From Aureibaculum flavum (GTDB lineage Bacteria; Bacteroidota; Bacteroidia; Flavobacteriales; Flavobacteriaceae): DNA of 64,000 nt. Shown piece after piece: positions 1 to 14,176 of the stretch. Position 1 is the stretch's first letter; each line of letters opens with the position of its first letter. The notes under the pieces are model-generated. The model saw nothing but the letters and a program-made list of their open reading frames with translations, was not told the origin of the DNA and ran no database searches. The translations under genes were made by a program, and so were the position numbers. The DNA lies in the NCBI RefSeq assembly GCF_016406085.1, contig NZ_JAEHFJ010000007.1, positions 62,001 to 126,000 of the forward strand. Reading direction: 5' to 3'.

Positions 1-1
1 T

Positions 2-694
2 TATACTTTTAATGATGATGATTTTCCAATTGAAAGAAATATAGAAATAGAAGCAACAACGAGTGAATATATAGCTGCCTATAGGGCGTTAACTCCGAAA
101 TTCAGTCCTATAGATTTATCAGATTATAACAGTTTGAAATTGAAGGCAAAAGGAACAGGGACGCTAATAATTAGATTAGTGAAAAAAGGTATTTCCAATT
201 GGGAAATTCAATTTAAAACTTCAATTACATTAACCGAAAATTTACAAGATTTTACGGTACCTTTTTCAGATTTCACATCTAATAATGGTGAAAGTTTAGA
301 ATTAACAGATGTAACTTCATTGGTTTTTACGATGCTTGCAGAAAGTGGTGCTAAAGAGACTAAAGAAATGAACTTAAAACAATTGCGTTTTTCAACAGGT
401 AAGACGTTGGCAGTTGAAAATGTAAACAGCAATGATAATTTATTAAACCCTATTGCTGTTCCAAACCCAATGATTAATAGTACAAAGATTCATTTTACCT
501 CAGAGCATGCTGAAAAAGTAACCTTATTGGTATATAGCCAATTAGGTTCATTGATAAAACAGGTGTCAATTCAAACCGTTGTCGGAAAAAATGAGATACC
601 TCTAAACAGAGATAATTTGTCTCCAGGTATTTATCTATGCAAGGTAAAAAGTAATTATGTCAATTATAAAACAACCAAACTAATTGTAAAGTGA
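2..694 (+). CDS. T9SS-exported protein with carbohydrate-binding-like domain, 5' end outside window
   Basis: The frame is open from base 2 to the TGA at 692-694, so only the C-terminal 230 residues are present and the true start lies upstream. The first ~130 visible residues form a beta-rich module with alternating hydrophobic strands, similar in style to the beta-sandwich modules appended to secreted glycoside hydrolases. The last ~80 residues are a type A T9SS sorting domain: VPNPMINSTKIHF, a middle strand ending in SPGIYLCKV, and a terminal TTKLIVK. The protein should therefore be exported through the outer membrane by T9SS. The catalytic part, if there is one, is not in the window, so the substrate cannot be named. 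A strong terminator follows directly. The sorting domain call is firm; the carbohydrate-binding call is an inference from fold pattern. Confidence 0.8.
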   Translation, partial: YTFNDDDFPIERNIEIEATTSEYIAAYRALTPKFSPIDLSDYNSLKLKAKGTGTLIIRLVKKGISNWEIQFKTSITLTENLQDFTVPFSDFTSNNGESLELTDVTSLVFTMLAESGAKETKEMNLKQLRFSTGKTLAVENVNSNDNLLNPIAVPNPMINSTKIHFTSEHAEKVTLLVYSQLGSLIKQVSIQTVVGKNEIPLNRDNLSPGIYLCKVKSNYVNYKTTKLIVK

Positions 695-784: not shown

Positions 785-2845
785 CTACTTTCTAAAGACA
801 GGAGAATCAAATAAATACCATTTAAAACGAATCCCAATTTCAGTAAATGTAAAACCAGCAGCAGTGGCAGAAGCAATATTACTTCGTGTTCCGAAAATAT
901 TAGCTGCAGCACGCGATGAAAATTTATATCCTAATTTAGCTTGGATTCTGTAGGTACTTTGACTACTATCATCTTCAATATATTGCAATCCTGTGGCTGC
1001 AGTTAACTCATAAAACCATTCCTTTGGTTTGGTTATAACTTCATCTTTTATCAAATTAACAAATACCTCAACAGCATTAAATTTATTAGGACTAAAATAG
1101 ACAGTTGGTACTTGATTTTTGAAAGTAATATATTGGTAGTTTAAACCAGCCTTTAAAGAGGGTTTACTTAAAATATTATAGTATAAAGATGTGAACAATA
1201 GATTTCTTGTATTATCGTCATTTTGAGAGGTGTAATAGTATTGTGTAAACCAACCTAATTTAAAATTAGTACTTAAATTATAATTTGCATAATAGTTGTT
1301 TTGTACAATTTCACGATCTAATAATTCAGCATTAAAACTTTGTATTTCACGTTTGTAACCAATATCTAATGTCTGTAATTTAAACGGTTTAATATTAAAA
1401 GACAGGTCTGTTAATAGCTGTGTATAGTCTGTGTCATTTGCATTAGCGGCCATTATACCTGCTGTACCTCTAAAAGTGATGTTGGGTAATAGCTGATAAG
1501 CCAAACCTAAACTAAAATCATTAGAAGTAGCCTTATTATCGGTTACAGAATTACTTGTATTTCTGTAATTGTAACTACCCAATACTTTCAGTTTCGTAGA
1601 TAACGGAAATTCTAAGTTGTTGTTAAAAGCAAATGCTTCATTGTCTCCATTGTCAAAAGTATACGAAGCTTTTCCTTCATACGATGGCGTAAAACTTGTA
1701 TTTAAGTTTTTTATAAAATTTGAGGCATCTTTTTGGTTGTTATAAAACTTTAACGTGTTTTCAGCTGAGGTATATGCACCGTTATAAAAACCCAGTGCTT
1801 TTAAAGCGTTAGCTTTTCCTAAATTACCGTCAAAAGAGGTACTGTCGTTAACTAAAATTTGGTTGTAATCCGTAACACTCTTTTTAAAATCACTTTTATA
1901 AATGTTTAGCGTTGCACGTAAAGCTAATATCCAGTTTTCGTTAGTATTGGTTTTTACTAAATTAGCAATAAGATTATCTGCGGGTTTAAATTTCTTATTC
2001 CAAATTAGGGCTTGAATATGACGTTCTGTAGTAGGTTGTACAAGTGATTTGTCAGTAATTGTATCTAAACTGTTATAGGCTTGTTTGCTAAGTTCTAGAG
2101 CTTCTTTTTCTTTTCCGTTTAGGTGAGATACCAATGCCAATCCATTTAAAGCTGTTATTTTATTATTTGGTTCAGTGGCTAAAAGATCATATGTAGCTTT
2201 TGCATCATCCAACCTGTTTGCAATTAAATAAAGGTTAGCTAAGTTTAACAACGTTTCTTTGTCATTCTTAAAAAGGGTTAGGTTTTCCTTTAAAAGTGAT
2301 TCTGCTTCATTGTATTTTTGTGCTTGTTGTTTTTGATAGGCATAGCCTAAATACATATACTTTTTAGAAGTTAATGCGTTAGGATTTCCTGGTAAAACTT
2401 CTAATGCTTTGTTTACATAAACTAAAGCATCTTCGTATTCTTTTAAATTAGAAAGTGTATTGGCATAACTTAATAAAGCAGGGAAACTTTTCGGGTCTTC
2501 ATCTATCAAACTTTTAAAATAGGTTTTAGCTTTGGTAAAATTGCTATTCCATAATAAGGACTCTCCATAATTAAGTTTTACTTCAAAATCGCTAGGGTAA
2601 TCAGCCAAAAGATTTGTGAATAAGGTATTGGCTTCTTCAGGTTTTCCATTAAGTCCAATGGCACGCCCATAACATAAACGTGCAGTTTTATTATCTGGAT
2701 AGTCTTTTAAAACGGTTTGAAAAAACGTTTCCGCTTCTGCATATTTTCCTGTTTCTAAATACGTAAAACCTTCTTGCATCTCTTGAGAATAGATAACAGT
2801 AGATGCTAAAACGGAAAACAGAAGCAATAGCTTTTTCATAATCAT
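785..2845 (-). CDS. TPR plus outer-membrane beta-barrel protein, putative polysaccharide export porin (PelB/PgaA/BcsC-like layout)
   Basis: 686 residues. The N-terminus has a signal peptide (KKLLLLFSVLASTVIYSQ). Residues ~20-345 are consecutive TPR repeats with the usual pattern (GKYAEAETFFQTVLKDYPDN and relatives). From ~390 to the end come amphipathic, aromatic-rich strands ending in FTEIGIRFKWYLFDSPVF, typical of an outer-membrane barrel. A periplasmic TPR scaffold on a barrel is the architecture of exopolysaccharide exporters such as PelB, BcsC and PgaA. That comparison rests on domain order, not on a sequence match. It lies opposite the STAS, flippase and glycosyltransferase genes, which supports a role as exit pore for the polymer made there. 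The start at 2845 (MIMKK) could equally be the ATG at 2839 (MKK). Confidence 0.7.
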   Translation of the reverse strand: MIMKKLLLLFSVLASTVIYSQEMQEGFTYLETGKYAEAETFFQTVLKDYPDNKTARLCYGRAIGLNGKPEEANTLFTNLLADYPSDFEVKLNYGESLLWNSNFTKAKTYFKSLIDEDPKSFPALLSYANTLSNLKEYEDALVYVNKALEVLPGNPNALTSKKYMYLGYAYQKQQAQKYNEAESLLKENLTLFKNDKETLLNLANLYLIANRLDDAKATYDLLATEPNNKITALNGLALVSHLNGKEKEALELSKQAYNSLDTITDKSLVQPTTERHIQALIWNKKFKPADNLIANLVKTNTNENWILALRATLNIYKSDFKKSVTDYNQILVNDSTSFDGNLGKANALKALGFYNGAYTSAENTLKFYNNQKDASNFIKNLNTSFTPSYEGKASYTFDNGDNEAFAFNNNLEFPLSTKLKVLGSYNYRNTSNSVTDNKATSNDFSLGLAYQLLPNITFRGTAGIMAANANDTDYTQLLTDLSFNIKPFKLQTLDIGYKREIQSFNAELLDREIVQNNYYANYNLSTNFKLGWFTQYYYTSQNDDNTRNLLFTSLYYNILSKPSLKAGLNYQYITFKNQVPTVYFSPNKFNAVEVFVNLIKDEVITKPKEWFYELTAATGLQYIEDDSSQSTYRIQAKLGYKFSSRAAANIFGTRSNIASATAAGFTFTEIGIRFKWYLFDSPVFRK

Positions 2846-2953
2846 AGTGTAATAAATTTAATAGAAATCAGAGTTAATCATTAGTAATTAATCATTCGTC
2901 TATAGAAAACTATCAACTTAACGAAATTCAATTACCTTTTATTCTTTTAGTAT

Positions 2954-2983
2954 TGATATTTGTATCATAAATAAAGCAATATA
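2954..2983 (+). promoter_or_regulatory. Promoter-proximal element A, upstream of STAS gene
   Basis: This 30-bp stretch contains GATATTTG (one mismatch from the Bacteroidota -7 box TAnnTTTG) followed by ATCATAA and CAATATA. It matches 25 of 30 positions of the stretch 4923-4952 upstream of the glycosyltransferase gene at 4967. The ATG is 41 bases downstream of the TTTG. The similarity is seen directly; co-regulation is inferred. Confidence 0.45.
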
Positions 2984-3002
2984 AATTTAATAAATAGAAA
3001 TT

Positions 3003-3281
3003 ATGGACATTAAAATATCAAAAACGGATAATATATTTAACGTAGAAGGACAAATTAACTGGTCTACAGCAAATTATTTTAAAACGCATTTTACTATTAC
3101 GCTTAACTCTTCAAGAGAATTGACTATTGATATTAATAAAGTCTCAGAAATTGATGATAGCGGGATGTTGGCTTTAAAATCAATTTATGCAAATGCTTTA
3201 AAATGGAATAAACCATTTTCTATCGTTGGTACAAGTTCAAATGATCTCTATAAGGAATTTCGTTCTATTGACCGAGCTTAA
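3003..3281 (+). CDS. Stand-alone STAS-domain protein (anti-sigma-factor-antagonist type)
   Basis: 92 residues forming a single STAS fold. The central strand and helix are TIDINKVSEIDDSGMLALKS, and Ser53 in DDSG occupies the position that is phosphorylated in SpoIIAA-type antagonists. There is no other domain and no signal peptide, so it is cytoplasmic. Such proteins switch partners by serine phosphorylation. No cognate kinase, phosphatase or anti-sigma factor lies in the window, so its partner must be encoded elsewhere. Its position at the head of a run of polysaccharide genes recalls SypA of the Vibrio fischeri syp locus, a STAS protein that controls polysaccharide production. That parallel is by context only. 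The C-terminus is slightly short for the family. Confidence 0.75.
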   Translation: MDIKISKTDNIFNVEGQINWSTANYFKTHFTITLNSSRELTIDINKVSEIDDSGMLALKSIYANALKWNKPFSIVGTSSNDLYKEFRSIDRA

Positions 3282-3596
3282 TAAAAAACAAAATTAGGTG
3301 CAGCGTCATTTCTTTTAAACAACATGCTCTAGTTTTTATCGTTATAGAAATAATTAATTTTAGTACAGCTAAACACTTAACATACTTGTTACCATATGGT
3401 AAAGGTATAGCATTAACGAATAAAAGTAAATGCAAACGGATTCCAACTATATTATATAAAGCTTTAAAAACTTTTTATAAAATAAAGTCAAACCTCCTCT
3501 TTAAGTTTATTTAGCTCCAGTTGTAAGACACTGTACGATAGTTTCAATAATAATAAATAATTTTAAGAAGTACACTGTTTTCAAAAAAATAAACAA
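3282..3596. other. 315-bp intergenic region without a gene
   Basis: I see no coding frame, RNA gene or clear terminator here. It holds a 14-bp perfect palindrome at 3389-3402 and is otherwise AT-rich. No convincing -7 box lies directly upstream of the flippase start at 3597, so the flippase may be read through from the STAS promoter. Confidence 0.6.
3389..3402. promoter_or_regulatory. 14-bp perfect palindrome, possible operator
   Basis: TTACCATATGGTAA is its own reverse complement and is followed by AGGT. The same half-sites, spread by six bases, recur at 4859-4878 in the next plus-strand gap of this locus, again followed by AGGT. This may be a protein-binding site, but no regulator is identified. 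Confidence 0.35.
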
Positions 3597-4847
3597 ATGC
3601 AATTTATAGCCTCATTAAAATCTAAAAAAATTACTCCAGAACAATTATTTATGATAAGTGTTTTGATAGTAAATGGAGGTAATTATTTATACAATTTGAT
3701 TCTTGGTCGCTTATTAGGGCCAGCTCAATTCGCTGATGCCGCTGTTTTAATTACGTTCTTATTGGTATTAAGCTTTGCAGCAATGACTTTTCAATTGGTA
3801 ACGGCTAAATTTTCGGTCCTTTTTGAAAATGAAATTTTAAAAAGTTTTATTTCAAAAGTATACAAAAATGCCTTTGTTGTGGGTATTATTATGGGATTAC
3901 TAATAGTTGTTTTTGCCAAACAACTACAAACTCTCTTTAATACTTCATCAGCAAATATGTTTATTGTTTTTGGCTGTGGCGTGCCGCTTTATTTTTTAAT
4001 GAGTGTTAATCGTGGTGTATTTCAAGGTAAAAAGAACTTCAAATCATTATCCATTACGTATCAAGGTGAAATGCTCAGTAGATTAATTATTACGCTAGGA
4101 CTTATTTTGATTTTTGACATACAATCTTCGGTAGTAATTGCTATTGGTATAATCGCTTCTTTTGTGTTCGGACTGATACCTTTTAAGATGCCAACACTTA
4201 TACCAAAGAAAGCTTTAGCATTAAGTAAATCGCATTCAAAAGAAATAAGAGCTTTTTTTATAATCACCGTATTTTATGAATTAACCCAAATCATAATCAA
4301 TAATAGTGATATTCTATTGGTAAAACATTATTTTGAGTCGTATGAGGCAGGTTTATATGCGTCGTTAGCATTAATTGGTAGGATCGTTTATTTTATCGCT
4401 TGGATGTTTGTGATGTTACTCTTACCAACGGTAGTTCAATTAAAAAAAGATGGAAAAGAAACCGCATCTATACTTTTTAAATATGTAGGTTATATAGCCG
4501 CAATATCTATAGTTATAATAGTACTTTGCTTAAGTTTTCCTGAAACTATAATTACACTTTTATTTGGAGATAGTTATATCGCTATGGCTCCATTATTATG
4601 GAAGTATGCCATCGCTACTTCAATGTTTGCCATATCTAATATTTTCGCTTACTACTACTTGTCTTTAGATAAATATGTACCTGTTGTTATTACAGGTGTG
4701 TTTGGTGTATTGCAAATGGGATTGGTTATTTTTTTTCACGACAGTTTAGAGCAAGTAGTTCATATGCAAATAATAGCGATGTTATTATTACTAGGTATTC
4801 AATTAGCATTTTTTAAATACAATCAAATAAAGGAAAAAACGAGTTAA
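3597..4847 (+). CDS. MOP-superfamily polysaccharide flippase (Wzx/PelG-like)
   Basis: 416 residues, almost entirely hydrophobic, with about 12 predicted membrane helices. The N-terminal helix carries NGGNYLYNLILGRLLGPAQF, the LGR-x-LGP-x-F pattern seen at the start of many MOP-family polysaccharide transporters (Wzx, PelG and relatives). No soluble domain is attached. It sits between the STAS gene and a family-4 glycosyltransferase, so it most likely moves a lipid-linked glycan, or the growing polymer, across the inner membrane. The gene is separated from its neighbours by 315 and 119 bases, each gap holding a TTACCAT/ATGGTAA inverted repeat. The substrate cannot be deduced. Confidence 0.8.
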   Translation: MQFIASLKSKKITPEQLFMISVLIVNGGNYLYNLILGRLLGPAQFADAAVLITFLLVLSFAAMTFQLVTAKFSVLFENEILKSFISKVYKNAFVVGIIMGLLIVVFAKQLQTLFNTSSANMFIVFGCGVPLYFLMSVNRGVFQGKKNFKSLSITYQGEMLSRLIITLGLILIFDIQSSVVIAIGIIASFVFGLIPFKMPTLIPKKALALSKSHSKEIRAFFIITVFYELTQIIINNSDILLVKHYFESYEAGLYASLALIGRIVYFIAWMFVMLLLPTVVQLKKDGKETASILFKYVGYIAAISIVIIVLCLSFPETIITLLFGDSYIAMAPLLWKYAIATSMFAISNIFAYYYLSLDKYVPVVITGVFGVLQMGLVIFFHDSLEQVVHMQIIAMLLLLGIQLAFFKYNQIKEKTS

Positions 4848-4858
4848 TCTAAAGAAAA

Positions 4859-4878
4859 TTACCATTCAACGATGGTAA
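4859..4878. promoter_or_regulatory. Inverted repeat with the same half-sites as 3389-3402
   Basis: TTACCAT, six bases (TCAACG), then ATGGTAA, followed by AGGT. The half-sites equal those of the palindrome at 3389. It could act as an operator or form a small hairpin after the flippase stop codon; there is no T-run, so it is not a typical terminator. Confidence 0.35.
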
Positions 4879-4922
4879 AGGTTATTCTAACTAATTGTAC
4901 CTAGTTTCGAATACATAAAGAG

Positions 4923-4952
4923 TGAAATTTGCATCATAATTAATACAATATA
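4923..4952 (+). promoter_or_regulatory. Promoter-proximal element B, upstream of GT4 gene
   Basis: This is the second copy of the 30-bp element at 2954-2983, identical at 25 of 30 positions: GAAATTTG in the -7 position, then ATCATAA and CAATATA. The ATG at 4967 lies 36 bases after the TTTG. Confidence 0.45.
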
Positions 4953-4966
4953 TAAATTAAGAGATC

Positions 4967-6169
4967 ATGAAATTAGCAATCGTTACAGCATATCCTCCTA
5001 GTAAAGTTACTTTAAATGAATACGCATATCATTTAGTAAAACACTTCAGACAAAAAGAAGAAGTAACGGAATTGGTATTATTAACCGATTTTACAGAAGG
5101 TGCAAAGGATATTGAATTTACGGAAGCTGGTTGTAAGATTACGGTTAAGGAATGTTGGAAATTTAATAGCTATACAAACTTGTTTAAGGTAACTAAAGCG
5201 ATAAATAAAATGAAACCAGATGCAGTGTTGTTTAATTTACAATTTATGAAATTTGGTGATAAAAAAGTAGCTGCCGCTTTAGGTTTAATGCTACCATTAG
5301 TATGTAAGCTTAAGAAAATACCTAATGTTGTTTTACTTCATAATATCTTAGAAGAAGTAGATTTAGGAAGTGCTGGTTTTACGACTAATAAATTAATGCA
5401 AAAGATTTACGGATTTATAGGTTCTACATTAACAAGATTAATACTTCAAGCGGATACTGTTGCGGTTACTATGGAGAAATATGTGACTATACTTGAAGCT
5501 AAATATAAAGCAAAAAATGTAAAGTTAATTCCGCACGGTACATTTGAAATTCCTGAAGAACCAGATTATAAAGTACCTACAAAACCAATGCAGATTATGA
5601 CGTTTGGTAAGTTTGGAACGTATAAAAAAGTAGAGGGAATGATTGAAGCCGTTGAGAAAGTTAGAAAATCAACAGGTTTAGATCTAGAAGTTGTTATTGC
5701 AGGAACTGATAATCCAAATGTTCCCGGATATTTAGCAAAAGTGGAAGAAGATTACAAACATATTCCACAAGTACGTTTTACAGGCTATGTGGAAGAAAAT
5801 GAAGTACCAACAATTTTCAACGAAAGTGCAGTAGTTGTTTTTCCATATACTTCTACAACAGGTAGTTCAGGCGTTTTACATCAAGCGGGTAGTTACGGTA
5901 AGGCTGTAATTATGCCAGATTTAGGAGATTTAGCCTTGTTAGTACAAGATGAAGGTTATAAAGGGGAGTTCTTTGAGCCTACTTCTGTAGATAGTTTAGC
6001 AAGTGCTATTGAAAGTATCGTAACTAATGAAGCTTATAGAATAGAATTAGGTAAAGCAAATTATAAAGCGGCAACAGCATTGCCAATGAGTACAATTGCT
6101 GATATGTATTTGAATACTTTTGATACTATTATTGCTAAAAAAACAAAAGGTACTGCGGTGACTGCTTAA
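4967..6169 (+). CDS. Family GT4 glycosyltransferase (GT-B fold)
   Basis: 400 residues, no signal peptide or membrane helix, so cytoplasmic. It has the two Rossmann-like halves of GT-B enzymes: an N-terminal acceptor half (MKLAIVTAYPPSK) and a C-terminal donor half with FGKFGTYKKVEGMIEA near residue 215 and FTGYVEENEVPTIF near 275. The donor-site loop near residues 296-312 reads TTGSSGVLHQAGSYGKAVI, so the usual E-x7-E of GT4 is replaced by T-x7-H. Variants with an SSGVL loop do occur among GT4 proteins. By analogy with PelF it may polymerise or extend the glycan exported by the neighbouring flippase; the sugar is unknown. It ends three bases from the convergent glycosidase gene. Confidence 0.8.
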   Translation: MKLAIVTAYPPSKVTLNEYAYHLVKHFRQKEEVTELVLLTDFTEGAKDIEFTEAGCKITVKECWKFNSYTNLFKVTKAINKMKPDAVLFNLQFMKFGDKKVAAALGLMLPLVCKLKKIPNVVLLHNILEEVDLGSAGFTTNKLMQKIYGFIGSTLTRLILQADTVAVTMEKYVTILEAKYKAKNVKLIPHGTFEIPEEPDYKVPTKPMQIMTFGKFGTYKKVEGMIEAVEKVRKSTGLDLEVVIAGTDNPNVPGYLAKVEEDYKHIPQVRFTGYVEENEVPTIFNESAVVVFPYTSTTGSSGVLHQAGSYGKAVIMPDLGDLALLVQDEGYKGEFFEPTSVDSLASAIESIVTNEAYRIELGKANYKAATALPMSTIADMYLNTFDTIIAKKTKGTAVTA

Positions 6170-6172
6170 TCA

Positions 6173-7690
6173 TTATTGATTAGAAATATATTTGAAAGCA
6201 GGTTTGTTTTCTCCATTTTTATCTATAAAACCATAGAATTCTTGAGCTTTCTTACGCCAAGGAAGGCGGCCTACCACAGCAGTAGGTATTTCATTAAAGT
6301 CATATAAAGTCCAAGATATAAATTGTAAATTATTAGCTGCAATTATTTCTTGGACTTTTTTATGGTAGTTGGCTTGATCGTCATCAGAGCTACCAAAAGG
6401 TTTCCAAAGGCCACTATAAGACGAAATACCAAATTCTTGAAGTACTAACGGTTTGTTAGGTATTTCCGTTCTCATAATTTTTATAGCTGCATCTAATTTA
6501 TCTAAATCTTCATAGTAATGGAATGATACAATATCTACTTTATTTTTTAAAATAGAAGTGCTTTGTGTATTAGACCAACCAATAGTTACTGGGTGTATAC
6601 TGTCTACTGATTTTACTAAATCGATCATGTTATCTAACCAAGCAATTACATTTGTTTTTCCTCGCGATTTGAAATCTAAATTTGGTTCATTTTTAATATC
6701 CCAACCTAACAACGCCTTATGATTCTTTAAGGATGAAACAATAGTAGCTGCATGGTGTTGATTAAGCGTCCAATTTAAAACAGAGTAATCACCAAAAAAA
6801 TCGAAAAGAGTTACGACCACTTTCAAATTTTGAGATTCAGCTAAATCTAATACCTGTTTCAATTTATTTAGTTTCTCAGGTTTAACATGTGCTTTGCCAA
6901 AATCTTCATAGGGTACAAATATTCTGATACTGTTTAAACCTGATTTTTTTATAATTTTAAAATCCTTTTCAATAATACTGGTATCAAATTTATCTCCAAA
7001 CATATCCCATGGTGAATCTTGAGGATAATAGTTAATACCTTTTAATGATTTAAAATCTTTTGAAGCGGATTCAAATTTATTTATATCATCGGCACTTACT
7101 TCTTTTATCATATGCCTGATACGCCATAAACCATCTTCTAATAACAATATGATTTTGTAAGTAGATTTTTCTTTATTTTCTAAAACTAAGGCATCGTCCT
7201 GATAAATTCTTTTATATTCCGTAACATCTTTATCCGTAATAACAGCCAGTTTACCATCTTCACTAAAAAAATCTAGAGTAGGGTTGTGGCTTAAAGTAGT
7301 CCCTACAATTGAAATATTTTTATCATTATTTTGTTCAACAAATTCAATGATGTTTTTCCGAGCAGTTTCGGTATAATAGTCATCAATGCCAGTTAAAGAA
7401 TTGGTTTTAAAAGCAACATGTTTTACATACCATGCATCTAGATAATCATTTTGAATGGCATATAAAGTTTGATCATCCATTACTCGTCCCTCATTATTTA
7501 ATGAAGCCCATTCTAATTGAGGTAAGTATTGATCTATTTTTTTTATTTCCGTGCGTAACATTCCGCTGCGGTCTGCACCTGTATTTAAATAGCTATACAA
7601 ACTGCTAATACCAAACAATATAAAAATAATTACAGCGATGTAAGATAACACTAGAGTACCACGCAATATGTTTCTGTTTATACCTCTCAT
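6173..7690 (-). CDS. Membrane-anchored clan GH-A (GH5-like) glycosidase with NTF2-like N-terminal domain
   Basis: 505 residues. One membrane helix near residues 12-30 is not followed by a clear cleavage site, so the protein is probably anchored facing the periplasm. Residues ~60-200 look like an NTF2-like cone ending in KIILLLEDGLWRIRHMIKE. Residues ~215-505 form a TIM barrel of clan GH-A with the acid/base Glu335 in DIKNEPN and the nucleophile Glu419 in VLQEFG; both are present, so it should be active. Last gene of a three-gene operon, overlapping the Ig-like gene by four bases (ATGA). A polymer-trimming hydrolase inside a biosynthesis locus is common (PslG, PelA, BcsZ). The exact GH family and substrate are uncertain. 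Confidence 0.75.
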   Translation of the reverse strand: MRGINRNILRGTLVLSYIAVIIFILFGISSLYSYLNTGADRSGMLRTEIKKIDQYLPQLEWASLNNEGRVMDDQTLYAIQNDYLDAWYVKHVAFKTNSLTGIDDYYTETARKNIIEFVEQNNDKNISIVGTTLSHNPTLDFFSEDGKLAVITDKDVTEYKRIYQDDALVLENKEKSTYKIILLLEDGLWRIRHMIKEVSADDINKFESASKDFKSLKGINYYPQDSPWDMFGDKFDTSIIEKDFKIIKKSGLNSIRIFVPYEDFGKAHVKPEKLNKLKQVLDLAESQNLKVVVTLFDFFGDYSVLNWTLNQHHAATIVSSLKNHKALLGWDIKNEPNLDFKSRGKTNVIAWLDNMIDLVKSVDSIHPVTIGWSNTQSTSILKNKVDIVSFHYYEDLDKLDAAIKIMRTEIPNKPLVLQEFGISSYSGLWKPFGSSDDDQANYHKKVQEIIAANNLQFISWTLYDFNEIPTAVVGRLPWRKKAQEFYGFIDKNGENKPAFKYISNQ

Positions 7691-8889
7691 AGCTTCGTGT
7701 TAATGAATGATTTTTCAATTTTAGCAGCTTTAATTTTTAAGGTATATGTTTTACTTGGAAACGTGTTTTTATCTAAAGTAAAAATAGCATAACCATTTGA
7801 AGAACTTTTAGAGAGTGTTTTTAGCTTTTGATCATTTTTGTAAACCGAAAGTAATACTTCCAAGCCATCAGGTATCATCTGATCCATAAAGCTTTTTAAT
7901 GGTCCAACGGTTATGGTTCTGTTATCTTCAGCAAACGTTACTTGAAAATCTGAAATAATAGACTTGTATGATAATTCTATCACATCACTTTCTGCCATTC
8001 CTTCGATAATGGCTTTTACAGTCCAATTTTCCTCGTGATCCGGATGAATCATTTTGGCAAATGCAATTCCATTGAGAGTAGTGCCAGATGTTTTTAAAAT
8101 ATTTTTTGAAGTGTTGGTTATAAAAAAGTTAACAAAAGTACCATCACTAACTATATTTCCATAGGTGTCTTTTATAATAGATGTTGAAAAAGTAGTGATT
8201 TGATTACCGTCGGAATAGTCATGATTTCTTTCAGATGAAATACTGAAATTTGTCGGAATTCCTGGCATAACATTGATAGTATTTTCCTTAGAGTTTAAAC
8301 CCAAACACTCAGAAGACACTAAAATTCTTCCTGTTTTTGATTCTGAATATATGTTTGTATAGGCAATTCTATTTTTCATAATGATGGTATCATCATTTTC
8401 ATTTTCCAAAAATTGATGCTTTACGGTCACCTTTGTGCTGTCAGCTAATGGGTTGTCATAAATATCTGTTGGAATAACAACGAACATTGAATAATCTGAA
8501 CCACCAGCAGCGATACTTGGAGGACCTAAATAAATTTCAAGTGTTTCTGTTTTTTGTTTTGGATGTATGTAGAATTTTCCTGAAAGTGATTGATTACCTA
8601 ATAATTTCCAGTTTACAATTCCCGTTTTGTTAGAGATTAACTCAGGGATGTTAAAATTTAATATCTCAGAATCTGTTTCTGATTTAATAACAGTAGAACC
8701 ATAGCTATTACTTACATAGAGTCTAGGTTTTTCTTCATTCGTATTTGAGAATTTTAAAATAATAGGGTTTCCAGCTACATATGCTGTGTTTTTGGTAAGT
8801 AGCTGAAAATTTTCCATAGTACTGCTAGAAGGTATTGCTAGCAAAGCTAACAATCCCGAAATTATCAGATATGTGAATTTTATTTTCAT
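7687..8889 (-). CDS. Exported Ig-like repeat protein of the glycan operon
   Basis: 400 residues with an N-terminal signal sequence (MKIKFTYLIISGLLALLAIP) and no cysteine lipobox. The rest is all-beta: at least two invasin/Big_1-like modules can be seen (PSIAAGGSDYSMFVVIPTD..., and PTNFSISSERNHDYSDG... with DTYGNIVSDGTFVNFFI), the DxxGNxxxDGT signature being typical of such domains. I do not recognise a catalytic site. Both neighbours overlap it (one base upstream, four downstream), so translation of the three genes is probably coupled. A structural or glycan-guiding role in the periplasm next to the GT-C protein and glycosidase is an inference; no specific family name can be given. Confidence 0.65.
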   Translation of the reverse strand: MKIKFTYLIISGLLALLAIPSSSTMENFQLLTKNTAYVAGNPIILKFSNTNEEKPRLYVSNSYGSTVIKSETDSEILNFNIPELISNKTGIVNWKLLGNQSLSGKFYIHPKQKTETLEIYLGPPSIAAGGSDYSMFVVIPTDIYDNPLADSTKVTVKHQFLENENDDTIIMKNRIAYTNIYSESKTGRILVSSECLGLNSKENTINVMPGIPTNFSISSERNHDYSDGNQITTFSTSIIKDTYGNIVSDGTFVNFFITNTSKNILKTSGTTLNGIAFAKMIHPDHEENWTVKAIIEGMAESDVIELSYKSIISDFQVTFAEDNRTITVGPLKSFMDQMIPDGLEVLLSVYKNDQKLKTLSKSSSNGYAIFTLDKNTFPSKTYTLKIKAAKIEKSFINTKL

Positions 8890-11800
8890 TAATTTGGACT
8901 CCCTATATAGGTGTTAATTTCTATTTTTATAAAACTATAATTCGCATTTTTAATAGGCTGTAAAACAGTATTTGTTTGATTGTTAATTCTATTTGGTACT
9001 ACCTTTTTGGAAATAGATTTGTTGGGTAAACCATTGACATAACAGTTTTTCATATCTTCATTTATTAAAGTTATGATGTCATTTTTTAAAACTGAATATT
9101 CAAATGTTTGCTGGCGTTGTTGCCTAATACCTTCCGAAATAAATTGATGGTCTACCCAAAGCATATTTTTATTGGCATCATAATATGTTATCAATAATTG
9201 CGGAATAGTAACTTCTTCAATACCTGAATTAAAAAGCTTTCCAATAATGCTTTCTTCTGAAATATCTAAATCACTTAATGTAGTCCCTTTATATAAATCT
9301 GAACTTGATACATTTCCAGCAACTTGTAAGTTGAATTTGGTGGGTTGTTCTTCAAATTCAATAGGTGTAAACTCATCAGGATTGAATGTTTTTGGAATAG
9401 AATCTTGTGTTTTAGACCATGCAATACCTTCAAAATTGATTTTAAAAGAACTCACTTCTTTCGGCATAAGTTTGTGCTTTACATGGTATTTTGCATTATA
9501 AGTAGCTAATTCCTTATTCTCGTCGTTATATAGAGTACCTTTTAGAACCACATCTGCAGGTACATTGTCAATATTTTGGACTTCACCAATTAATGCATAA
9601 CTCTTATTGTGTTTAACTAATTTAGCTGAAAGAATTTCTAAATTAGGTTGCTTTAAAACATCTTCATGGTGTGTTTGTTCAGTCGTTATTCGCCTCCTCC
9701 CTTGATTGAAATATTTGGTTACATTATCTGAATACAATTGATCTGGAGGTAAGTCTGTACCTATCGCTTCAGGCTGAACATACCATTTACTTTTATGTTT
9801 GACCAAATACTTATAGTCGGTTTTATTAATTTTTTCTAATGGCGTAATCCAATTGGTATTTACCTTTATAGTGGCTAAACTATCTGTTTGAGAAAGGACT
9901 ATGGTTTCAATGGCATCTAATTTGGCATAAGAACTCAATAACCCATCAGTTACTGAAATTTCCAACATATATTGGTCCATTGGTAAATTACTTTCAGGAT
10001 TTATGAGACTATATGCCTTTTCATATTCTTTAAAATCTAAGGCATCGTAATAGGATAACAAAGCATTTTCAGGGGAATGATGTGAATCATTTTTAATGTA
10101 AAATAGATAGACACCATATAATACTATAATAGCGACTATTAAGGACCAAATATGAGTAATTCTAAGAACGCCTACAGAGAATTTTGAGTAATTATTTTTA
10201 AACTTTAAAAAATCAGGTATAGCTTTTATCTTTGTTTTTAAGGCATTTACCATAAACATTTGAATGTTTAAAATAAAAGCGATAATTACGGTTATAAAGG
10301 GCATTAATCCCCATAATATTTTTTGCCATTGAGCAACATCATCTTTAGGAATTATTGACGAAACGGGAGGTACATTTAATTTTTCCCAGACTTGAATCCC
10401 ATTTTCTAGTTGTCGTAAGCGTTGCCAACCACAGAAATATAAAATAGGATCGTAAAACTTATCGTTTGAGAAAATGTATTTAAAATTATATTTTTCAGGA
10501 GTGGTTAAAAATTGTTGCAAAGATCCAACACCTTCAACACCTTTAAATTTTGAATTTTCTAAACGTTCAATAGGCCGTGTGGTTAATTCAGGTAAACGTC
10601 TCGCTGAATGATAATTTCCATCGACACTCATGGCATTGGTTTGTGCGGATAGCCACGCCATTTGATCTCCAAATCCCAACGTCATATAACGCCATTGGTC
10701 GTGCTGGTCTTGATTTAGAAAATTGATTATAGGCAACATCTTTATTTTTTGAGGTTGAGAAGGCCTGAAATAGCTTAAACTCATTGTAAAGATTGTCATA
10801 AATAGGAAGAGGCCTGCTAATATGCCCCCAATCAATCGATGGTAAATTGCACCATATTTTTTTTGAATTAAGTCTTTTAAATCTCCATCAACAAAGCGGT
10901 ATGCAAATTCACCAAAAAGAGGTAAAGACATTATAGATGCCCAGAGTGTAAATCGGTCTAATGTTAAAATATTAAAAGCGGTTTCACCCAAAAACATTCT
11001 AGGAATGGGCGTAGTACCTCCAGTTCCTAAAATAGTAAGAATTGTAATTGAGAGCCCAAAAAACAAATAACGTTTACTATAGTATCTGTAAAATATATAA
11101 GGTAACAGTAGTAATAAAACACCCCAAGGAATTAAAAAAAACACTAATCCAGATGAAGTTATCTCTAAAAAATTATCTCTAGACCCGTGTGGTATAGGTA
11201 CTTGTGTAATTGGGTTTGCTTTAGAATTTATCCAATAAGGTAAGAGGCATCCAACAATTATGGTAAGTGAGAGTATTCCAAAACTCACAATACGCTTAAA
11301 AAGTTGCATAAAACTAGTGAGAAATACTTTGAACGTTATGGCCTTAGCAGAATCTACTTTTTCTCTAGAAACATCCATAATAACCATTCCTATTAATGGG
11401 AATATGAAGAATATCATACCGAAAATAGGGGTAACATGATGTGATGTTACGGTTACTGCAATTAAAGAAAGTGACGTGAATAGGTATTTATAACGACCTG
11501 TTTTTATCCATAAGTATATTTCTGGTAGCGAGTGCATTAGCACGGAAATGCCAATAATACTGGGTAATTGACCAAAAATATGAAGTGTTTCAACGAATGA
11601 TGATGAAAAAACGGCTAAAATGGCAGCATAGCCCGCCACTGTTTTATTTGAGGTGATGAGCAATGAAAACCTATAAACACCCGTTATAAATAATATGATA
11701 CTAATTAAAGCGACGGTAAACATGCCAAATTTAAGCCCTCCAACATAAGAAAGTGCACCGATGGATTGATGTACTAATGGTGGGTAGCTCATTACTGTAA

Positions 11801-11978
11801 AACCCGTGTACCATTTGTCGTTCCAAGGTTCGAACCAACTACCGGCATAATGTTCCGCGAAAAATAGATGTATAAGTGCGTCGTAGGTTGTTTCTAGGGT
11901 AAAGAATATTGAAGTACCGTGAAAGGCAATACCTATAAGTAATGCGACAATTAAGTATTTATTGGTTTTTTCTTTCAT
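8889..11978 (-). CDS. Large GT-C-like polytopic membrane protein with periplasmic NTF2-like and beta-rich C-terminal domains
   Basis: 1029 residues. The first ~400 hold about ten membrane helices; the first periplasmic loop has TTYDALIHLFFAEHYAGSWF, with the acidic and histidine residues expected for GT-C glycosyltransferases or the PTPS-related membrane family (PF10131). A soluble loop (~410-555) with WLSAQTNAMSVDGNYHSARR is followed by two further helices near 570 and 615. Residues ~635-740 look like an NTF2-like domain (ENALLSYYDALDFKEYEKAY). The remainder is beta-rich with a FxLYD-like part (AKLVKHNKSYALIGEVQNID). GT-C enzymes use polyprenyl-phosphate sugars, which fits the GT2 encoded divergently next door. 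First gene of the overlapping operon. Function inferred from fold and context. Confidence 0.65.
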   Translation of the reverse strand: MKEKTNKYLIVALLIGIAFHGTSIFFTLETTYDALIHLFFAEHYAGSWFEPWNDKWYTGFTVMSYPPLVHQSIGALSYVGGLKFGMFTVALISIILFITGVYRFSLLITSNKTVAGYAAILAVFSSSFVETLHIFGQLPSIIGISVLMHSLPEIYLWIKTGRYKYLFTSLSLIAVTVTSHHVTPIFGMIFFIFPLIGMVIMDVSREKVDSAKAITFKVFLTSFMQLFKRIVSFGILSLTIIVGCLLPYWINSKANPITQVPIPHGSRDNFLEITSSGLVFFLIPWGVLLLLLPYIFYRYYSKRYLFFGLSITILTILGTGGTTPIPRMFLGETAFNILTLDRFTLWASIMSLPLFGEFAYRFVDGDLKDLIQKKYGAIYHRLIGGILAGLFLFMTIFTMSLSYFRPSQPQKIKMLPIINFLNQDQHDQWRYMTLGFGDQMAWLSAQTNAMSVDGNYHSARRLPELTTRPIERLENSKFKGVEGVGSLQQFLTTPEKYNFKYIFSNDKFYDPILYFCGWQRLRQLENGIQVWEKLNVPPVSSIIPKDDVAQWQKILWGLMPFITVIIAFILNIQMFMVNALKTKIKAIPDFLKFKNNYSKFSVGVLRITHIWSLIVAIIVLYGVYLFYIKNDSHHSPENALLSYYDALDFKEYEKAYSLINPESNLPMDQYMLEISVTDGLLSSYAKLDAIETIVLSQTDSLATIKVNTNWITPLEKINKTDYKYLVKHKSKWYVQPEAIGTDLPPDQLYSDNVTKYFNQGRRRITTEQTHHEDVLKQPNLEILSAKLVKHNKSYALIGEVQNIDNVPADVVLKGTLYNDENKELATYNAKYHVKHKLMPKEVSSFKINFEGIAWSKTQDSIPKTFNPDEFTPIEFEEQPTKFNLQVAGNVSSSDLYKGTTLSDLDISEESIIGKLFNSGIEEVTIPQLLITYYDANKNMLWVDHQFISEGIRQQRQQTFEYSVLKNDIITLINEDMKNCYVNGLPNKSISKKVVPNRINNQTNTVLQPIKNANYSFIKIEINTYIGSPN

Positions 11979-12032
11979 TTAAAGTGAACGACAATATCCA
12001 CATGGTAAATATAAAAAATTTAATTAGCATAT

Positions 12033-12051
12033 TTTATTTATCTATACAAAT
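12033..12051 (-). promoter_or_regulatory. Promoter-proximal element C, upstream of GT-C operon
   Basis: Read on the minus strand this is ATTTGTATAGATAAATAAA. It equals the core of element A (ATTTGTAT, then ATAAATAAA) except for two bases in place of one in the middle. It lies 69 bases before the GT-C start codon. Confidence 0.35.
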
Positions 12052-12052
12052 A

Positions 12053-12080
12053 AACCATTCATCTAAAGATAGTGATGGTT
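12053..12080. promoter_or_regulatory. Inverted repeat in the divergent promoter region
   Basis: AACCAT and ATGGTT are separated by 16 bases between the divergent starts of the GT-C operon and the receiver-GT2 gene. The half-sites resemble those at 3389 and 4859 but the spacing differs, so this is a weak candidate operator. Confidence 0.2.
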
Positions 12081-12116
12081 TTAACTAAAAAGTAATTTTA
12101 AAGTACTGTGACACTT

Positions 12117-12124
12117 TACATTTG
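12117..12124 (+). promoter_or_regulatory. -7 box (TACATTTG) of the receiver-GT2 gene, element D
   Basis: TACATTTG fits TAnnTTTG exactly, 31 bases before the ATG. The following bases (AATTAATA at 12131-12138) match element B at the same spacing. No clear -33 TTG is found at the expected distance. Confidence 0.45.
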
Positions 12125-12154
12125 TCACACAATTAATAACGTAAATCAATTATC

Positions 12155-13324
12155 ATGAAAATATTAGCAATAGACGACCAGCAATTAGTTTTATTACCCT
12201 TGGAAAAAAGGTTACTAGAATTAGGTTATGATGTTAAAATTGAAACCGATGCCGTTAAGGGCTTAGAATTGTTCGAATCGTTTACTCCTGACTTAGTGAT
12301 AGTTGATATTAATATGCCGGAAATGTCAGGTATAGATGTTGTTAAACATATTAGAATTGCAAAAAAATCTCAGACTCCAATAATGGTATTGTCTGGAGAT
12401 ACAAAAGATGAAACGATTACAGAAGGTTTTGATTTGGGAATTAATGATTACATGAAAAAACCACTAAGTTTAAATGAAATTAGTGCACGTGTAAAGCGGT
12501 TGATTGGTGCTCCTGATGTTGATAGTATAGTTGCCAAAAGCAATGTAATGATACAAGAACGCTGTGTAGGTGTTGTAATACCTTGTTATAATGAAGAAGA
12601 ACGTTTATTTAGTAAGGAATTTACAGATTATATAGATAAAAATTCTGGATACCACTTATGTTTTGTGAATGATGGAAGTAAGGATAAAACGTTAGAGGTA
12701 TTAAAGGAATTACAAAAAGGAAGAGAAGACTTTATTACGGTATATGATTGTGAGAAAAATGGAGGAAAGGCGGAAGCTGTTCGTTTAGGTATGTTGCATA
12801 TGGCTAAAAAAGAAGATTTAGATTATATTGGATTTTTAGATGCTGATTTGTCTACCGATTTAGCAGATTTTGATGATTTGGTTAAAACAATTGAAACTTC
12901 AGAATTTAAAATAGTAAGTGGCTCTCGTATTTCAAGAATGGGAGCAAACATTACAAAAGAATCTGCTCGAAAAATTATTAGTTTAACGATTAATTTTATT
13001 ATCAGAAAGATTTTGAAAATGGATTTTAAAGACACACAATGTGGAGCTAAAATATTTAGTAAAGATGTAATAGAAGTTGCTTTCGGCGAAAAATTTGTAA
13101 CACAATGGATTTTCGATGTTGAGATTTTTAAAAGAATGAGTATCCATTTTGGATTAAAACAAGCAAAAACAATGCTTTGTGAGCAACCTTTAAAAAGATG
13201 GATTCATGCGGATGGATCTAAGTTATCAATGAAAGATTCCGTAAAAATTGTTGGTCAATTGGGACAAATTGCATGGGTGTATAGAAATAAAAAAAGTCAA
13301 ATGGAGCCTAGTTTAACGAATTAA
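12155..13324 (+). CDS. Receiver domain fused to DPM1-like GT2 glycosyltransferase
   Basis: 389 residues, cytoplasmic. Residues 1-118 are a complete CheY-type receiver: acidic pair Asp7/Asp8, phospho-acceptor Asp51 in VIVDINMPEMSG, switch Ser80, Lys102 before Pro103. After a ~20-residue linker, residues ~138-370 are a GT-A family 2 enzyme of the dolichol-phosphate-mannose-synthase type: VIPCYNEEE (142-149), NDGSKDKT, metal-binding DAD (229-231), VSGSRISRMG and DTQCGAKIF. There are no C-terminal membrane helices. DPM1-like enzymes make polyprenyl-phosphate sugars for GT-C enzymes, one of which is encoded divergently. The fusion suggests that donor synthesis is switched by phosphorylation. No histidine kinase is in the window. 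Domain calls are firm, the regulatory idea is inference. Confidence 0.85.
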   Translation: MKILAIDDQQLVLLPLEKRLLELGYDVKIETDAVKGLELFESFTPDLVIVDINMPEMSGIDVVKHIRIAKKSQTPIMVLSGDTKDETITEGFDLGINDYMKKPLSLNEISARVKRLIGAPDVDSIVAKSNVMIQERCVGVVIPCYNEEERLFSKEFTDYIDKNSGYHLCFVNDGSKDKTLEVLKELQKGREDFITVYDCEKNGGKAEAVRLGMLHMAKKEDLDYIGFLDADLSTDLADFDDLVKTIETSEFKIVSGSRISRMGANITKESARKIISLTINFIIRKILKMDFKDTQCGAKIFSKDVIEVAFGEKFVTQWIFDVEIFKRMSIHFGLKQAKTMLCEQPLKRWIHADGSKLSMKDSVKIVGQLGQIAWVYRNKKSQMEPSLTN

Positions 13325-13403: not shown

Positions 13404-14176
13404 GAATTCATAGAATTTTATGAATGGTAATAACATCATCTTTTTATTACTAAGTGACTCAGCACTTTCTAAATAGAAATTTTTTATCCTGTGTTAAAAT
13501 CACTCATAACTTCTCTTAGTAGACTTGATTTTGGGTTATAAAGGGGAACATAGTGATATTAATAGTTCTATAAATTTTAGAAAAGTTAAAATTGAAAGGA
13601 GGTTTACTTCACGTTTCACTCGTTGATCCTGTTATGGGTTTCTAAAGAGGAAGAATTAACTAATTAATTATTATAAGTATTATTAAAAAAAAAAAGGTAA
13701 TTAACAAGATTTCTCCTCGTTCCTCGTCGTGATCCTGAAGAAGGGGCGTTGCTCATTAAAAGCCTAAAATGTCGATGCCATTTTAACGTCTTTTTTTATT
13801 TGTTTACTTATGCTCAACTTCGTTGGTAGTTTTGCATTTTATTATAATTAACAGGATTACTCCTCGTAACTTATCGTGATCCTGCCGTGGGTTTAAAAGA
13901 AAGGTTTGTTTAATTAACTTTATATGAATTATATAAATTAGGATAATTTACAGGATTACTCCTCGTTCCTCGTCGTGATCCTGTAATGGGGCGTTGCTCA
14001 TTAAAAGCCTAAAATGTCGATGCCATTTTAACGTCTTTTTTCATTTATTACTTATGCTCAACTTCGTTGGTAGTTTTGCATTTTATTGTAATTTACAGGA
14101 TTACTCCTCGTTCCTTATCATGATCCTGTAATGGGGCGTTGCTCATTAAAAGTTAAAATACTATCGTATTTTGATT

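Follow-up and report, generated by a model that had tools for sequence, protein, structure and literature searches.

A conserved glycan gene set of Flavobacteriaceae is linked to an H-NOX phosphorelay operon by a shared direct-repeat promoter motif

We analyzed a 64,000-nucleotide stretch of the Aureibaculum flavum genome (hereafter, the window; G000:C38:62001-126000), in which eight genes between positions 785 and 13,324 code for a predicted glycan assembly and export system. A sequence-only reading had seen in these eight genes most of a glycan assembly line. The open reading frames (ORFs) were placed correctly and on the correct strands, and Pfam profiles, which were used for domain calls, back their assigned roles (Table 1); missed, being outside the window, was an operon of H-NOX, FIST, kinase, phosphotransfer and LytTR genes located to the left. 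The glycan genes and this operon are conserved together and share one promoter motif. We conclude, with a probability of about 0.65, that in these marine flavobacteria they form one regulatory and biosynthetic unit, in which a phosphorelay sensing a gas, probably nitric oxide (NO), controls the output of a polymer.

Conservation of the glycan genes and their linkage to an H-NOX phosphorelay operon

A first sample of 60 genomes was searched for the putative GT-C protein, which was found in 15 of them, giving 15 loci (the A. flavum locus and 14 relatives). Homologues of GT-C, the Ig-like protein, the hydrolase, GT4, the flippase, the porin and GT2 are present together in every one of these. A scan of named genomes yielded 542 confirmed stretches; the best 80 (hereafter, the named loci), which include 13 of less than 22 kb owing to contig ends, contain GT-C in 80 cases, the Ig-like protein in 78, the hydrolase in 77, GT4 in 71, the flippase in 66 and the porin in 63. 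A match starting in the receiver domain of the receiver-GT2 fusion was obtained in 64, a count to which stand-alone receivers can contribute. Thus, homologues of the core genes do occur together elsewhere, as would be expected if they belong to one system. What recurs is an assembly and export set; the STAS gene, which had been counted as part of the assembly line, is present in only 9 of the 15 loci, and a STAS protein of the same family occurs at some place in 52 of the named loci.

The named loci belong to Algibacter, Flavivirga, Winogradskyella, Olleya, Lacinutrix, Formosa, Tamlana, Dokdonia, Tenacibaculum, Kordia, Polaribacter and other genera; nearly all are Flavobacteriaceae, and three carry Saprospiraceae-type names. 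In a sample of the phylum, GT-C matches were found in 12 of 395 genomes, 11 of them from the family of A. flavum (A. flavum included). The flanks are not kept: the GALM-like neighbor is present in 2 of the 14 relatives and the downstream UDK gene in none, though some contigs end nearby (counts of lost flanking genes are limited by contig ends at G007 and G024). Separately, Portibacter lacus YM8-076 (L086), which bears a Saprospiraceae-type name, carries the whole cluster with 78% GT-C identity; this is probably the same place as in G484, a genome of another family, and may reflect recent transfer or a misnamed or contaminated assembly.

Seven tightly packed genes (G000:C38:53849-60003), beginning about 8 kb to the left of where the window starts, code, in this order, for a receiver, an H-NOX protein, a kinase with PAS domains, a protein with FIST N and FIST C domains, a second kinase, a 105-amino acid histidine phosphotransfer protein (Hpt) and a response regulator composed of a receiver and a LytTR domain. 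The gene of an 867-amino acid secreted protein, whose 3′ end lies in the window, comes directly after the LytTR gene. The H-NOX protein was identified by PF07700 (HNOB, 3.2e-40), and its residues H102, P117, Y133, S135 and R137 are invariant in 11 of 11 loci; we take the proximal histidine and the YxSxR residues to be the heme motif. The FIST protein matches PF08495 (7.7e-40) and PF10442 (1.1e-36) and is followed by a kinase gene. If, as we assume, a protein with FIST N and FIST C domains beside a histidine kinase defines NosP, its domains and neighbor would make it a NosP. No GGDEF protein was found in the whole genome at E ≤ 0.001, and the output of the relay is therefore probably not cyclic di-GMP (c-di-GMP).

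The first kinase and Hpt adjoin the cluster in 13 of the 15 loci, LytTR does so in 12, and FIST with the second kinase in 8; H-NOX and the stand-alone receiver are each present in 12 (11 as ORFs, plus G034 by tblastn), and in G035 and G018 the relay module is situated elsewhere. Co-occurrence was then counted in 299 genomes of the family, where GT-C was found in 79 (four partial), H-NOX in 105 and both in 70 (Fisher's p 1.6e-31, uncorrected for phylogeny). Sixty genomes have both genes on one contig; in 59 of them the genes are within 35 kb of each other, and in 58 of these 59 they lie on opposite strands, as in A. flavum. In the outlier, G139, they are 2.3 Mb apart, and in ten genomes they are on different contigs.

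A long direct-repeat motif is found at the promoters of both halves

The sequence-only reading had pointed to shared promoter elements, and these are real. The word ATTCGTC is present in 140 of 397 upstream regions of the cluster in the named loci, where the cluster regions are kin to one another, and in 3 of 395 other upstream regions. A 46-nucleotide position weight matrix (PWM) was built from 100 sites at the GT2, GT4, STAS, porin and GT-C promoters of other genera, with the four closest loci excluded; promoters of the receiver/H-NOX operon (RR1) and of the secreted protein were absent from the training set. The top five matches in the 76 kb around the A. flavum locus nevertheless fell on promoters of the locus: secreted protein (41.1), receiver/H-NOX operon (26.9), porin/STAS (26.3), GT-C/GT2 (21.3) and GT4 (20.6). 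The sixth match scored 6.5 and adjoins the fourth, the next one scored 2.6, and the maximum in five Markov shuffles was 4.9. The long repeat motif thus marks five promoters of the combined locus. In the named loci, 189 sites scored at least 15, 180 of them intergenic, and none were found in Markov shuffles; the majority of the 189 are similar to the sites used for training.

The halves of the motif repeat with a 21-base period. When a 33-nucleotide direct-repeat pattern was searched with up to three mismatches, it was found at 2 places in the 4.75 Mb genome, both at this locus, and the reversed control gave none. The short motif CCATTCRTCTA, tried with one mismatch as a specific marker, was rejected: it matched the genome 157 times, compared to 99 matches of the reversed control. 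Only the long direct-repeat form of the motif is specific.

Downstream of 226 sites, the sequence TANNTTTG, which we take to be the Bacteroidota −7 box, occurred 90 times, 71 of them at an offset of 61–62; a control word occurred 4 times in all. In three genomes where the two halves are unlinked (G139, G182 and G018), the motif is present at both the signaling and the glycan places, the cluster sites of G018 being weak (9.9 and 13.0). In the excerpted part of PMC6193735, LytTR sites are described as repeats of about 9 bp, mostly with 12-bp spacing, that are also found before the regulator's own operon. Since known LytTR sites repeat in this way, the 21-base period fits a LytTR-type motif, with the LytTR regulator of the operon as its putative binder.

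Properties of the glycan proteins

The features of the window are listed in Table 1.

Table 1. Glycan genes, motif sites and the adjoining secreted-protein gene in the window
Feature	Position	Strand	Evidence
867-amino acid secreted protein, 3′ end in window	1..694 (end, 134-694); gene G000:C38:60091-62694	+	DUF6923, weak CIA30, type IX secretion system (T9SS) C-terminal signal
Predicted TPR + 16-strand beta-barrel outer-membrane polysaccharide export porin	785..2845	-	TPR Pfam, AlphaFold2 model, fold matches
LytTR-type direct-repeat motif, porin/STAS divergent promoter region	2892..2924	+	PWM score 26.3
Single-domain STAS protein	3003..3281	+	Pfam STAS 1.7e-7
MOP-type flippase	3597..4847	+	Polysacc_synt_3 7.6e-15
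LytTR-type motif, GT4 promoter	4862..4894	+	PWM score 20.6
GT4 glycosyltransferase	4967..6169	+	Glycos_transf_1 1.1e-18
Clan GH-A glycoside hydrolase, GH5/GH158-like, membrane-anchored by inspection	6173..7690	-	Cellulase/GH5 6.4e-13
Exported Ig-like (Big_1-like) protein; overlaps operon neighbors	7687..8889	-	Big_1 3.1e-6, below Pfam cut-off
1029-amino acid membrane protein with multiple spans, putative GT-C; C-terminal region soluble, with a weak NTF2-like match	8889..11978	-	
LytTR-type motif between GT-C and receiver-GT2 genes	12055..12087	+	PWM 21.3; TANNTTTG box 62 bases on
Receiver domain fused to polyprenyl-phosphate-sugar synthase-type GT2	12155..13324	+	Response_reg 7.3e-23, Glycos_transf_2 1.6e-21

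The GT2 domain of the receiver-GT2 fusion matches ArnC, GtrB and DPMS (2.4e-7 to 9.4e-5) and has a DxD motif; by these matches it is of the polyprenyl-phosphate-sugar synthase type, the route that had been proposed for it from its sequence. Compared to ArnC, GtrB (sll0501) and dolichol-phosphate mannose synthase, it has an added N-terminal receiver, and C-terminal membrane helices are not apparent on inspection. The receiver carries, as judged from the alignment, a complete set of phosphorylation residues: D7, D8, D51, the Ser/Thr and the lysine are kept in 10 of 10 aligned fusions, and the DAD motif of GT2 is kept in 13 of 13 aligned sequences. GT2 is fused to a receiver in 12 of the 15 loci and is receiver-less in G021, G035 and G026. 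In several relatives, a degenerate GT2 copy of about 160 amino acids adjoins the receiver-GT2 gene (L045:7729-8217 and equivalents), and the copy of L045 is without the DAD motif; no such copy is present in the window. Also adjacent to receiver-GT2 in L045 is the gene of a stand-alone receiver (L045:9446-9817), which shares 63% identity with the receiver domain of the fusion.

The best family for the GT-C candidate is PTPS_related (E 0.0088, 15.4 bits against a cut-off of 26.4); although below the cut-off, it ranks first among three genomic places matching this family at E ≤ 10. A profile search of the PDB with an 11-sequence alignment gave no match at E ≤ 1, and the AlphaFold2 model (46-sequence alignment; predicted local distance difference test score, pLDDT, 58.9) was too weak for a fold search. 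The porin model (pLDDT 90.5) consists of a TPR superhelix and a 16-strand outer-membrane barrel.

In all 15 loci the hydrolase keeps two glutamates, E335 and E419, and its sequence matches include mannanases and GH158. A family with a phosphomannose isomerase domain (assigned by Pfam on one member) is encoded in 29 of the named loci, and no such gene is present in this window. The isomerase neighbors and the hydrolase matches hint at a mannose or beta-glucan polymer. The secreted 867-amino acid protein has homologues in 8 of the 15 loci and in 37 of the named loci, many of which are cut by locus ends. The STAS protein has a DDSG motif at residues 51–54; a serine switch was considered and rejected, since conservation of this serine among 54 homologues is below 85%.

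Downstream of the glycan genes, a noncoding region in front of tRNA-Pro (window 13600-14152) contains two repeat families that overlap (39 and 64 nucleotides, four copies each, 64–95% identity), possibly a family of the repetitive extragenic palindromic (REP) type.

Proposed mechanism and the evidence that limits it

According to the mechanism that we propose, the H-NOX heme sensor, with NO as the probable ligand, and the FIST/NosP-like protein would feed the two kinases, from which phosphoryl groups would pass via Hpt to the LytTR regulator. The regulator would bind the 21-bp repeats ahead of its own operon and of the secreted protein, porin/STAS, GT4 and GT-C/GT2 genes and would set their transcription. 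The relay might also phosphorylate the receiver of GT2 and so gate the supply of polyprenyl-phosphate sugar for GT-C. GT4, the flippase, GT-C and the Ig-like protein would build a surface polymer, which the membrane-anchored hydrolase would trim and the TPR-barrel porin export.

Several observations weigh against this mechanism or limit it. Twelve of the named loci have no site scoring 15 or more; four of these are shorter than 10 kb, and the others are five from Kordia, two from Tenacibaculum and one metagenome-assembled genome. The cluster of G027 has no site scoring 8 or more, its LytTR gene being on another contig; G161 has none of 12 or more despite an adjacent LytTR gene, and likewise G202 has none of 12 or more. 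In the window, a near form of the short half-site occurs 5 times, with 4.9 expected, and related genomes do not contribute independent sites. In the family sample, 9 of the 79 genomes with GT-C lack H-NOX (two have a GT-C fragment only and four are less than 85% complete), and 35 of the 105 genomes with H-NOX lack GT-C. Since G161 and G021 retain the kinase, Hpt and LytTR beside the cluster without H-NOX, NO cannot be the sole input, and the FIST gene is found in only 8 of the 15 loci. Gating by the receiver would not be essential, because GT2 is receiver-less in three of these loci.

Alternative explanations

One alternative, which we consider rather unlikely, is that the sensor half answers to oxygen, redox state or another ligand; the kinase network that controls the polymer would then take H-NOX as one optional input. 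The PAS domains of the first kinase speak for it, as do the two relays that persist without H-NOX and the patchy presence of FIST. On the other hand, the heme residues are kept in all H-NOX proteins aligned, and the FIST/NosP-like protein with its own kinase looks like a second NO-type module, which favors NO as the signal of the unit.

Somewhat less probable still is a glycan that is lipid- or protein-linked, for instance on the 867-amino acid protein or on lipopolysaccharide, with GT-C acting as the transferase onto the carrier. The class of GT2, the possible GT-C, the flippase and a T9SS-type secreted protein under the same motif would all suit such a product. A porin and a hydrolase usually accompany an exported polymer, and the porin-fold TPR barrel and the hydrolase with intact catalytic glutamates thus argue for export.

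A divergent Pel-type exopolysaccharide system, the specific likeness that had been suggested for the porin, flippase, GT4 and hydrolase, is very improbable. A search of the entire genome for a PelG-type flippase (PF16933) gave no match at E ≤ 10, the flippase of the locus belonging to Polysacc_synt_3. DUF3492 (PF11997), an N-terminal domain that we take to be the mark of PelF, is not on the GT4 of the locus, and the hydrolase is of another family than that of PelA. Lipid-donor GT2 and GT-C proteins are not known to be Pel parts. In fold comparison, the porin model does match PelB, the best structure by VIA (Z 28.1), with the PgaA barrel (26.9) and BcsC (25.7) close behind and BcsC on top in Foldseek. 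Identity to these porins is 9–14%, and by its model the protein of the locus is an export porin of the TPR/16-strand kind near PelB, PgaA and BcsC alike. Pel membership was rejected on the flippase and GT4. The sole DUF3492 match in the genome, a PelF-type glycosyltransferase (7.8e-52), lies on another contig (G000:C20:365270-366115).

Finally, although both strands carry genes of the locus, which form several transcription units, a chance neighborhood of unrelated glycan and signaling genes is practically negligible given the kept gene set, the linkage in 59 of 60 genomes and the single motif across the unit.

The H-NOX module beside other operons

Eight of the 35 H-NOX loci without GT-C were examined. 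In L170 and L173, the module is next to genes of a Wzy-type set (UDP-glucose dehydrogenase, epimerase, sugar transferase, outer-membrane protein and Wzy_C), with five and four motif sites, respectively; the set was assigned by Pfam on L170 and by gene order and transferase sequence on L173. L169 and L172 have the module beside a different operon, also with five and four sites. One site was found in L171, and none scoring 12 or more in L168, L174 and L175.

The priming transferases of the two Wzy-type loci (L170:12273-13460 and L173:8595-9827; Bac_transf by Pfam on L170) have an N-terminal degenerate receiver-like domain. A functional receiver was considered here and rejected, the domain being, on inspection, without the phospho-acceptor aspartate.

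The same module and motif at a Wzy-type operon with a degenerate receiver on its priming transferase suggest a wider interpretation, which we rate a little short of even: the module may be a c-di-GMP-free gas/NO phosphorelay regulon of Flavobacteriaceae in which one operator serves interchangeable polysaccharide operons, the GT2 receiver being, in the version of the window, a further endpoint of the relay through which NO would act on polymer output directly in addition to its effect on transcription.

Comparison with known regulatory circuits

The closest working analogue appears to be the HnoX-HahK-SypF-SypG/SypE-syp circuit of Vibrio fischeri, a likeness of working only, in which H-NOX, a kinase and an Hpt relay lead, as proposed here, to the regulator of a polysaccharide locus. 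As given in the excerpted text of PMC12369376 and PMC8738867, the syp circuit has a second branch, which includes a response regulator and SypA, a STAS protein. In A. flavum, which belongs to another phylum, the relay genes instead lie next to the glycan genes, the regulator is of the LytTR type, and a FIST/NosP-like module and a receiver-fused glycosyltransferase are present. H-NOX/NosP biofilm circuits have been described, according to the excerpt of PMC8738867, mainly from proteobacteria and mostly as acting via c-di-GMP; the same sensor families stand next to kinases here, whereas no GGDEF protein was found. The direct repeats of about 9 bp, the 12-bp spacing, the placement upstream of promoters and the site at the regulator's own operon are shared with the LytTR system of PMC6193735 as excerpted, which is a LytTR/membrane-protein pair, whereas here a receiver-LytTR protein is combined with kinases and Hpt.

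No earlier description of this locus was found among the titles listed in the open-licence literature, nor a paper there joining Flavobacteriaceae, nitric oxide and H-NOX; the locus is likewise absent from the excerpted parts of PMC8776716 and PMC4603819. New relative to known systems are the superlocus of relay and glycan genes, the LytTR-type operator throughout it and the receiver-fused lipid-sugar synthase, in a genome where no GGDEF protein was detected.

If the proposed unit operates as described, Flavobacteriaceae would possess a route from NO to a surface polymer that is distinct from the c-di-GMP type, and a receiver joined to a polyprenyl-phosphate-sugar synthase would amount to direct control of glycan precursor supply by phosphorylation.

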